Below are positions 35,854 through 38,350 of a stretch of DNA of 64,000 nt, in pieces. The DNA comes from Rhodothermus marinus. GTDB lineage: Bacteria; Bacteroidota; Rhodothermia; Rhodothermales; Rhodothermaceae. A model generated the notes under the pieces. The model had not been told where the DNA came from and made no database searches. It was given only the letters and a program-made list of their open reading frames with translations. Each line of letters starts with the position of its first letter. Position 1 is the first letter of the stretch. Location: positions 301,501-365,500 of the forward strand of contig NZ_AP019797.1 in assembly GCF_009936275.1 (NCBI RefSeq). Reading direction: 5' to 3'. The position numbers and the translations under genes were made by a program.

Positions 35854-36555
35854 CTACGGTACGCCGAGGATTTTGTGGGTCTGGACGGAGACGCGCCAGT
35901 CGGGATGGGCCAGCGCCAGTTCGACGGCGCAGCGCCGGGCTTCCGCCAGACGGGGACCGTCCTCGGGCTGTAGCCACAGCAGCGGCACGCGCCGGCCGCC
36001 CGCCCGGTGCGGGCGCGCCCGCCGCGCAAAACGTGCATACTGCTCGGGCCGGTAGTCGGGCATGACCAGCTTCAGCTCGTCGAAGTACTCCAGTGTCAGC
36101 CGATCCTCGGGCAGCTTCGGACTGCACACGATCCAGTCGGGTGCCACGACCTGGCCGGTCTCCGGATCGGTGCAGGCCTGGCGCAGACTGATCGTTCCGT
36201 TCGTCTCGATGGCCACGAAGTACCCGGCCGCCTTCAGCGCGCGCATCAGCGCCGCGTCGAGTTGCAGCAGCGGCTCCCCGCCCGTGAGCACGCAGAAACG
36301 AATCGGACCGCCCACTTCCTGCATGGCCGCCACCAGCTCGTCGGCCGTATAGGCGCGGCTGCCTTCCTTCCGAAAGTCCGTGTCGCACCAGCGCGGACAG
36401 TCGGCGCCCGTGCGCCGGGCGTCGCGCTCCCGGTCCTGTTCGTAGCCCGACCACAGGTTGCAGCCCACAAAACGCACGAACACGGCCGGGCGTCCGGCAA
36501 AGAAACCCTCGCCCTGCAGCGTCTTCCAGATTGCTTTGATCCGATAGCTTCGCAT
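35854..36555 (-). CDS. queE: 7-carboxy-7-deazaguanine synthase
   Basis: 233 residues. It is a radical SAM enzyme that converts 6-carboxytetrahydropterin to 7-carboxy-7-deazaguanine in preQ1 synthesis. It opens with IKAIWKTLQGEGFFAGRPAV, then FVRFVGCNLWSG, and has FCVLTGGEPLLQLD and IETNGT, all QueE signatures. The cluster cysteines are spaced C-x20-C-x3-C, longer than both CxxxCxxC and the C-x14-C-x2-C I recall for Burkholderia QueE. It lies 2 bases after the queC stop, the last gene of queD-queC-queE. Confidence 0.93.
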   Translation of the reverse strand: MRSYRIKAIWKTLQGEGFFAGRPAVFVRFVGCNLWSGYEQDRERDARRTGADCPRWCDTDFRKEGSRAYTADELVAAMQEVGGPIRFCVLTGGEPLLQLDAALMRALKAAGYFVAIETNGTISLRQACTDPETGQVVAPDWIVCSPKLPEDRLTLEYFDELKLVMPDYRPEQYARFARRARPHRAGGRRVPLLWLQPEDGPRLAEARRCAVELALAHPDWRVSVQTHKILGVP

Positions 36556-36557
36556 GG

Positions 36558-37274
36558 TCAGTCGAGCCAGCCGCGGGCTTTCGCCTCCTCGTAGCCGCGG
36601 GCGCGCAGGATCGAGGCCGGGTTGTCGAGCCGGCCGTAGCCCCACGCATGGCGCTCGGAGCGGTCGCCGTTGTAGTCGGTGTGCGTCAGTTCGATGATCA
36701 CGTCCAAAATGCCCAGTTCGCGGGCAAGACGCCAGGTTTCGGCTTTGGTCAGGTGCATCAGCGGCGTGTGGATGCGAATCGTCGTGTCGAGCGCCAGCGA
36801 AAGCGCCCGCTCCATGGCGTCGATGAACGGGCGGCGGCAGTCGGGATAGCCCGAGTAGTCGGTCTGGCACATGCCGCCGACCAGGTCGTGGATGCCGCGC
36901 GTGAAGCCGTAGCTGGCGGCCAGCGTCAGAAACAGCGCGTTGCGGCCGGGCACGAACGAGGCGGGCAGATGGGGGGCCAGCGGATGGGCGGCCGAGACGT
37001 CCTGGTCGTGCTCGGTCAGGGCGCTGCCGCGCAGCAGGCCGCGCAGGTCCAGCACGGTGAAGGGCACGCCGGCCTGTTCGGCGATCTTGCGGGCCTGCTC
37101 GAGTTCGACGGCGTGCTTCTGGCCGTAGTGGAAGCCGATGGCCTCGACCTTCGGGAAGTAGTGCAGCGCCCAGTAGAGGCAGGTGGTCGAGTCCTGCCCG
37201 CCGGAGAGCAGCACCAGGGCCGTCTCGCCGTGCTCAGCGGGCTTCAGCGTGGGCAGCAGGTTCGGGGCGGACAT
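36558..37274 (-). CDS. queC: 7-cyano-7-deazaguanine synthase (zinc-site cysteines missing)
   Basis: 238 residues. The PP-loop SGGQDSTTCLYWAL (about 24-37) and FHYGQKHAVELEQA are intact; the enzyme uses ATP and ammonia to form preQ0 from 7-carboxy-7-deazaguanine. Family members carry four zinc cysteines near the C-terminus. Here the equivalent stretch reads THTDYNGD, then GYGRLDNPAS before LRARGYEEA; the cysteines are replaced by Asp, Arg, Asn and Ser. The rest of the region is preserved, so this is a clean loss of the zinc site and not a truncation. The gene overlaps queD by 41 bases. Confidence 0.92.
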   Translation of the reverse strand: MSAPNLLPTLKPAEHGETALVLLSGGQDSTTCLYWALHYFPKVEAIGFHYGQKHAVELEQARKIAEQAGVPFTVLDLRGLLRGSALTEHDQDVSAAHPLAPHLPASFVPGRNALFLTLAASYGFTRGIHDLVGGMCQTDYSGYPDCRRPFIDAMERALSLALDTTIRIHTPLMHLTKAETWRLARELGILDVIIELTHTDYNGDRSERHAWGYGRLDNPASILRARGYEEAKARGWLD

Positions 37275-37704
37275 CGCGGATCAGCGCGCATTCGGTTTCG
37301 GCAAACGAGGTCTCGGTTTCGGCCAGGCGCACCCACAGCCGCCGGACGCCCCGTGCCCGGAGCCAGTCGCCGGCCTCCCGGATCAGGTAGTCGGCCACGT
37401 AGGTGCACAGGTTCTCGGCCGTCGAGTCGAAGGGCAGTACCACGTAGCGCGAGCCGAGCGCGTCCAGCGCTTCCTGCAGCGCCGTGTCGTCGGAGGCTAC
37501 CAGCGTGGCGTGGTCCCACGTGTCGATCAGGGGCTGGACCAGCCGTTTCAGGTCCTGAAAATCCACCAGAATGCCCCGTGCGTCGGGATCGCCTTCGAGC
37601 CCGACGACGAGCCGGTAGGAATGTCCGTGCAGGTGGCGACAGGCGCCCGGGTGCCAGGGCAGCCGGTGCGCCGCCTCGAACCGAAACCGTTTGGCAACTT
37701 TCAT
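37234..37704 (-). CDS. queD: 6-carboxy-5,6,7,8-tetrahydropterin synthase
   Basis: 156 residues. Zinc ligands H13 (EAAHRL), H26 and H28 (LHGHSY) and the catalytic Cys22 (CRHLHGH) are present, as are DFQDLKRLVQPLIDTWDHATL and the C-terminal ETETSFAE. QueD converts dihydroneopterin triphosphate to carboxytetrahydropterin, the first dedicated step of 7-deazaguanine synthesis. First gene of the minus-strand que operon, divergent from queF. Confidence 0.95.
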   Translation of the reverse strand: MKVAKRFRFEAAHRLPWHPGACRHLHGHSYRLVVGLEGDPDARGILVDFQDLKRLVQPLIDTWDHATLVASDDTALQEALDALGSRYVVLPFDSTAENLCTYVADYLIREAGDWLRARGVRRLWVRLAETETSFAETECALIRDVRPEPAAHAEAR

Positions 37705-37834: not shown

Positions 37835-38350
37835 ATGCAGGCGATGACCGAGCAGGAGCGGCAGGCGCTGGCCGAGAAGCTGGCGGCGCTTCGCGAAGAG
37901 GCGCTGGCGCACACCGAACAGGCCCTGGCCTACATGGCCCGCTTTGGCGTGCGGCCCGAAGGGCGCATTCAGCCCTTCTTGCCGCCGGAGGCGCGGCAGC
38001 AGCACATCGATCGATTGCCCTACGAGCACGCCGTGCGTCAGGTGGTCGTCTACGAGACCGAACCCGGCGAATTTTCGGCCGTCTGTCCATTTTCGGGGTT
38101 GCCGGATTACGGCGTGCTCCGGATCGAGTACGTGCCCGGAAGCTGGATCCTCGAGCTGAAAAGCCTCAAGTACTACATCGTCTCCTGGCGTAACATCGGC
38201 GCGGCGCAGGAAGACCTGACGGCCATCATCTACCAGGACCTGATGCGCCACCTCGAAGACCCCGAATATCTCCGCGTGACCACCGTGTACAACGTGCGCG
38301 GGGGAATCCGGACCACCTGCACGATCGACAGCCGCGAGCAGGGCCGTTAA
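37835..38350 (+). CDS. queF: NADPH-dependent 7-cyano-7-deazaguanine reductase
   Basis: 171 residues from ATG 37835; ATG 37844 is also possible. It is the short, single-domain type. The nucleophile Cys84 (CPFSGLPDYG, with Asp91) and the QueF motif ELKSLKYY (about 107-114), then WRNIGAAQED, are present. The enzyme reduces preQ0 nitrile to the preQ1 amine, the last free-base step before tRNA insertion. It overlaps the convergent dynamin-like gene by 4 bases. Confidence 0.95.
   Translation: MQAMTEQERQALAEKLAALREEALAHTEQALAYMARFGVRPEGRIQPFLPPEARQQHIDRLPYEHAVRQVVVYETEPGEFSAVCPFSGLPDYGVLRIEYVPGSWILELKSLKYYIVSWRNIGAAQEDLTAIIYQDLMRHLEDPEYLRVTTVYNVRGGIRTTCTIDSREQGR

Follow-up and report, generated by a model that had tools for sequence, protein, structure and literature searches.

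A Rhodothermus marinus QueC without its four zinc cysteines, probably still a preQ0 synthase

Canonical QueC, represented by the enzymes of Escherichia coli and Bacillus subtilis and by the structures 3bl5 and 2pg3, is recognised by the motifs SGGxDS, YxQxHxxE, VPxRN and YPDC, a lysine and a zinc motif; according to a family study of July 2026, the latter is one of the two hallmark motifs of QueC, and zinc is required for function (PMC13329287). Mutagenesis of the E. coli enzyme demonstrated that Tyr35, Arg99, Tyr131 and Tyr189 are needed, Tyr189 being located within the zinc region (PMC13329287). Cap9 of type IV CBASS and QatC belong to the same superfamily and share the ATP-dependent chemistry on the 7-carboxyl with the QueC described here; they differ from it in having kept the zinc cysteines and in acting on proteins (PMC13329287). 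The nearest zinc-type relatives of our protein are QueC of Alphaproteobacteria, Campylobacterota and Queuovirinae phages (HxWGYGCGxCPAC), which share with it a WGYG insertion but keep all four cysteines (CCCC). No published Cys-free or zinc-free QueC was found in the open-access literature. Loss of zinc ligands with retention of function is known from the C-minus paralogues of ribosomal proteins (L31, L36 and S14 type), which have lost the zinc-ribbon cysteines and are often found together with C-plus copies under the control of Zur. Unlike these, QueC is an enzyme, is usually present as the sole copy, and is accompanied by QueD and FolE that keep their zinc motifs.

The window, a stretch of 64,000 nucleotides of the R. 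marinus chromosome, contained a single QueC open reading frame (Table 1). In profile searches its product scored 212 bits with PF06508 and 215.9 bits with TIGR00364, thus passing the family threshold of the latter (cut-off 150.3), and the best hit of a phmmer search against solved structures was B. subtilis QueC 3bl5 (E 2e-53), followed by the Erwinia enzyme, 2pg3. The alignment with 3bl5 covered the PP-loop as well as FHYGQKH, VPGRN and SGYPDC. The initial annotation had considered the PP-loop intact, in agreement with the invariance of S24, G25, G26, D28 and S29 across 84 aligned sequences of both the zinc and the Cys-free types; the main catalytic residues, including Tyr201, were also invariant in this set. 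Y50, Q52, H54, E57, R111, N112, YPDC (143-146), K177 and Y201 were all present, and every QueC residue of the family study was kept with the exception of the zinc motif (PMC13329287). The protein shares with canonical QueC the fold, the PP-loop, YxQxHxxE, VPxRN, YPDC, the essential Tyr and the que context, and differs from it in the replacement of the four zinc cysteines (by D, R, N and S), in a LDNPAS loop and in a GW C-terminal tail. The only further PF06508 match in the genome (21.5 bits, or 32 bits with in-frame neighbours) corresponded to another PP-loop protein, and a hidden second QueC was ruled out for this genome and its relatives.

Table 1. Location of queC, its former zinc site and the neighbouring que genes in the window
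Feature	Position	Strand	Remarks
queC (lineage A, Cys-free QueC)	36558..37274	(-)	238 aa; matches to PF06508 and TIGR00364; AF2 model matches 3bl5
Former zinc-site region	36612..36677	(-)	Family alignment columns
Asp200 codon	36675-36677	(-)	Zinc column 1
Arg215 codon	36630-36632	(-)	Zinc column 2
Asn218 codon	36621-36623	(-)	Zinc column 3
Ser221 codon	36612-36614	(-)	Zinc column 4
queD	37234..37704	(-)	PF01242, 98 bits; lies upstream of queC and shares 41 bases with its start; three-His zinc motif kept (AAHRL..CRHLHGH)
queE (radical SAM CDG synthase)	35854..36555	(-)	ATG 2 bases after the queC stop; TIGR04508, 179 bits, best family, below the cut-off of 240
queF (preQ0 nitrile reductase)	37835..38350	(+)	Divergent from queD; PF14489, 81.8 bits at G000:C1:339602-339841

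The C-terminal region of the protein reads THTDYNGDRSERHAWGYGRLDNPASILRARGY, and its zinc region, aligned to 3bl5, is THTDYNGDRSERHAWGYGRLDNPASILRARGYEE; in the nearest zinc-type relatives the same region is roughly SHTCYxGxRxxxHxWGYGCGxCPACxLRxxGW. The replacement of the four cysteines by Asp, Arg, Asn and Ser, originally noticed in the single sequence, was confirmed by the family alignment, in which D200, R215, N218 and S221 occupy the zinc columns. The canonical Cys4 site was absent from this protein and from 63 of 63 members of the clade to which it belongs, hereafter lineage A; judged by its sequence, the protein is a zinc-site-less QueC variant and no canonical member. Within lineage A, Asp200, Asn218, Ala220 and Ser/Thr221 were each found in all 63 sequences. 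In the combined alignment the four columns were CCCC in 73 of 73 zinc-type QueC and every other scorable sequence was entirely Cys-free, no QueC with one to three of the four cysteines being found among the aligned, scorable sequences. A site that still binds a metal, with altered ligands or affinity, through Asp, Asn and Ser or through residues elsewhere would be compatible with the fixed positions of Asp and Asn, both able to ligate metals; however, the second column, with Lys or Arg in 43 of 63 sequences and Val and Gln tolerated, fits a metal site poorly, and no new conserved Cys or His appeared in the former zinc region of the 63 lineage A sequences. We consider a remaining metal site unlikely, and the window QueC would carry no bound metal.

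The Cys-free form was the sole QueC, in one copy and with the same motif, in each of the 24 QueC-bearing genomes of the order (60 sampled, window genome included), and in nine of 10 further genomes. It had been suggested that the same four changes be sought across Rhodothermota: they were present in all of these 24 genomes, but they were not private to the group and extended to several phyla and to phages. The initial annotation had named the presence of an additional, standard QueC in related genomes as an argument against its reading; among the 60 genomes of the order and the 10 further ones, such a copy was encountered solely in one Ignavibacteria metagenome-assembled genome (MAG), whose Cys-free copy lies within a prophage-like cluster. 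Outside the order, lineage A sequences with 61-77% identity were found sporadically, in Spirosoma, Rhodocytophaga, Cesiribacter and Cyclobacteriaceae (Cytophagales), in a few Planctomycetes, in Myxococcota and in the Ignavibacteria MAG, whereas relatives below about 56% identity in the same search retained the cysteines. Across a sample of 198 genomes of the phylum, matches reached at least 66% identity in eight genomes, all from the order of the window, or at most 42% in 63, with none between these values; the examples of the latter class that were fetched were CCCC. A pattern scan of 294 genomes from the phylum of the Planctomycetes MAG, which used the exact pattern and misses near variants, matched only the starting genome, so the Cys-free form would be sporadic there. 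Among seven Rhodothermus genomes dN/dS was 0.02-0.09 in 20 of 21 pairs and 0.22 in the closest pair; these data show that the Cys-free site is fixed and that purifying selection acts on the gene.

The Ignavibacteria MAG carried a chromosomal zinc QueC and a separate lineage A QueC (L115, 3814-4506, and L114, 4326-5039), and the cluster of the latter was arranged as queD-queE-folE-queC-DpdA-like-ParB-like-TerL; the coexistence of two QueC in this genome may reflect contamination of the MAG. A viral contig of 71.6 kb displayed the same layout, and homologues of QueD, QueE, FolE and DpdA occurred at 19 of 22 viral or prophage-like loci of lineage A, within the DNA available. A separate phage QueC family, lineage B, showed mostly Ser, Thr, Asn and Asn, or similar residues, in the zinc columns; its members are L133-L178, L199 (Pseudomonas phage Iggy), L200 (Sphingomonas phage MMDA13), L201 and L217. 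The queC genes of Iggy and MMDA13 were accompanied by queE, queD, folE and dpdA, and at least three of these four genes were present on 42 of 47 lineage B contigs. In a QueC tree built without the C-terminal region, lineage A formed a single branch, with an SH-aLRT support no higher than 65-70, whose position differed from that of lineage B; one zinc-type phage QueC was nested inside lineage B. A single origin of both lineages was rejected when they were forced together (p-AU 0.005, log-likelihood difference 90). Since the tree separates the two lineages and their joint grouping was rejected, the zinc site appears to have been lost at least twice.

At the R. marinus locus queD, queC and queE overlap or abut one another, queF lies next to them in divergent orientation, and TGT and QueA are encoded elsewhere in the genome. 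The queF product scored 99.9 bits with TIGR03139 (QueF-II; cut-off 86.9). Among the 60 genomes of the order, QueF above the family cut-off was present in 23 of the 24 with Cys-free QueC and in none of the 36 without it (Fisher p 1e-15, with no correction for shared ancestry), an association that would also arise from joint inheritance as one cluster; the exception, G024, with QueC and no QueF, is a MAG that is 83% complete. Relatives of the order such as G009, G013, G019, G020 and G023 were devoid of QueC and QueF and yet carried TGT, G009 having QueA as well, which suggests salvage of preQ1, or of a precursor further along the pathway, in these genomes.

The initial annotation had left a choice between a zinc-free, working QueC and an enzyme making a different product. 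The latter would be 7-amido-7-deazaguanine (ADG), released by a QueC that stops half-way. ADG is indeed the QueC intermediate (PMC13329287), dADG has been described as a base in phage DNA (PMC6884629, PMC8306585), and the altered region touches the essential-Tyr loop. Against this, QueF, which reduces the nitrile preQ0, tracks the Cys-free QueC as described above; an enzyme stopping at the amide would starve QueF, and preQ0 is therefore the most likely product. In addition, TGT and QueA are present in the genome, and neither it nor its relatives have a second QueC to supply preQ0. As to lineage B, a paper by Olsen et al. (2023), cited in PMC11008142, states in its title that dPreQ0 is present in the DNA of Iggy; because Pseudomonas hosts possess their own QueC, this is no proof of the product of the phage enzyme. 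Release of ADG is thus disfavoured, by the need of QueF for preQ0 and by the dPreQ0 reported for a lineage B phage with DpdA, and we regard it as quite improbable. The first option, a zinc-free working QueC, was well supported by the catalytic signature, the sole copy of QueC, the link with QueF, purifying selection and two independent losses.

The AF2 model of the window QueC, obtained metal-free, had a mean pLDDT of 94.6, with values of 93-96 over residues 201-238, and the C-terminal part is predicted to be placed correctly without the cysteines. Over residues 16-235 the model matched 3bl5 with Z 25.4 and an rmsd of 2.0 Å for 190 residues, followed, in this order, by 2pg3, Cap9 and QatC; the model of a lineage B protein was also QueC-like (pLDDT 94.9). 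The third position of Cap9 among these matches, together with the fact that the superfamily was repurposed in this way twice (PMC13329287), could point to an enzyme that attaches a deazaguanine to protein. Nevertheless, Cap9 and QatC retained their zinc cysteines (PMC13329287), the canonical substrate motifs are kept here, and the partners of queC are queD, queE and queF, no CD-NTase or qatABD partner genes adjoining it; such repurposing is very improbable. A sequencing error or a decaying gene, with hardly any probability left to it, was refuted by the related genomes, where the same changes recur in 63 different sequences, spread over numerous genomes and contigs, and by the low dN/dS.

Zinc ligands have also disappeared from a later enzyme of the pathway. 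In the TGT of this genome (L109, G000:C1:849389-850462, outside the window) all four ligands were replaced (C, C, C and H by L, G, S and Q), the sequence being DPGLDGYVSQ...TIQN as compared to DPxCDCYTC...TIHN, whereas both catalytic Asp residues were kept. None of the scored TGTs of the order had any of the three Cys or the His in place. Loss of the TGT cysteines extended to Cytophagales, the Ignavibacteria MAG and some other Bacteroidota, where the His was in some cases retained. Strict coupling of the two losses was rejected: in Myxococcota and Planctomycetes with Cys-free QueC the TGT keeps CCCH, and some Bacteroidota have a zinc QueC alongside a zinc-ligand-free TGT. The zinc losses of QueC and TGT thus overlap and, as far as these sequences indicate, are uncoupled. 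A stripping of zinc from the whole pathway was likewise rejected, the three-His motif of QueD and the C..H..C ligands of FolE being kept.

Taken together, the window QueC is very probably a functional preQ0 (7-cyano-7-deazaguanine) synthase without the Cys4 zinc, and zinc is probably unneeded for the chemistry of QueC. We propose that in ordinary QueC the metal acts as a structural pin that clamps together the C-terminal helix and the loop bearing the essential Tyr (Tyr201 in our protein, Tyr189 in the E. coli enzyme), and that in lineage A this pin would be replaced by a metal-free polar network of Asp200, Asn218 and Ser/Thr221, usually with a basic residue at position 215, in which the clade-specific LDNPAS loop and the C-terminal Gly-Trp tail would also take part. 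It is the fixation of these elements in the sequences, and not measured contacts, that suggests such a clamp. The ATP-dependent conversion of CDG to the amide and then to the nitrile would be unchanged; in bacteria preQ0 would proceed through QueF, TGT and QueA to queuosine, and in phages with the same form of QueC it would be used by DpdA for DNA modification.

It is likely that QueC can dispense with its zinc and has lost it on at least two occasions, in a clade of bacteria and phages and in phages only, with the four cysteines giving way to a fixed polar set converging on Asn at the third position, that zinc-free QueC moved between phages and bacteria, and that both QueC and TGT of Rhodothermales run without structural zinc. 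If this is true, the existence of a clade that lacks the cysteines but has the complete catalytic signature would mean that the zinc of QueC is structural and replaceable, and would identify the residues that take its place. Annotation based on motifs could discard Cys-free QueC, which this finding would correct. These enzymes would provide a ready-made test of the role of the metal in enzymatic nitrile synthesis, the zinc-free enzyme of an organism that is probably thermophilic could prove convenient as a catalyst, and the phage members would link the loss of the zinc site to DNA modification.
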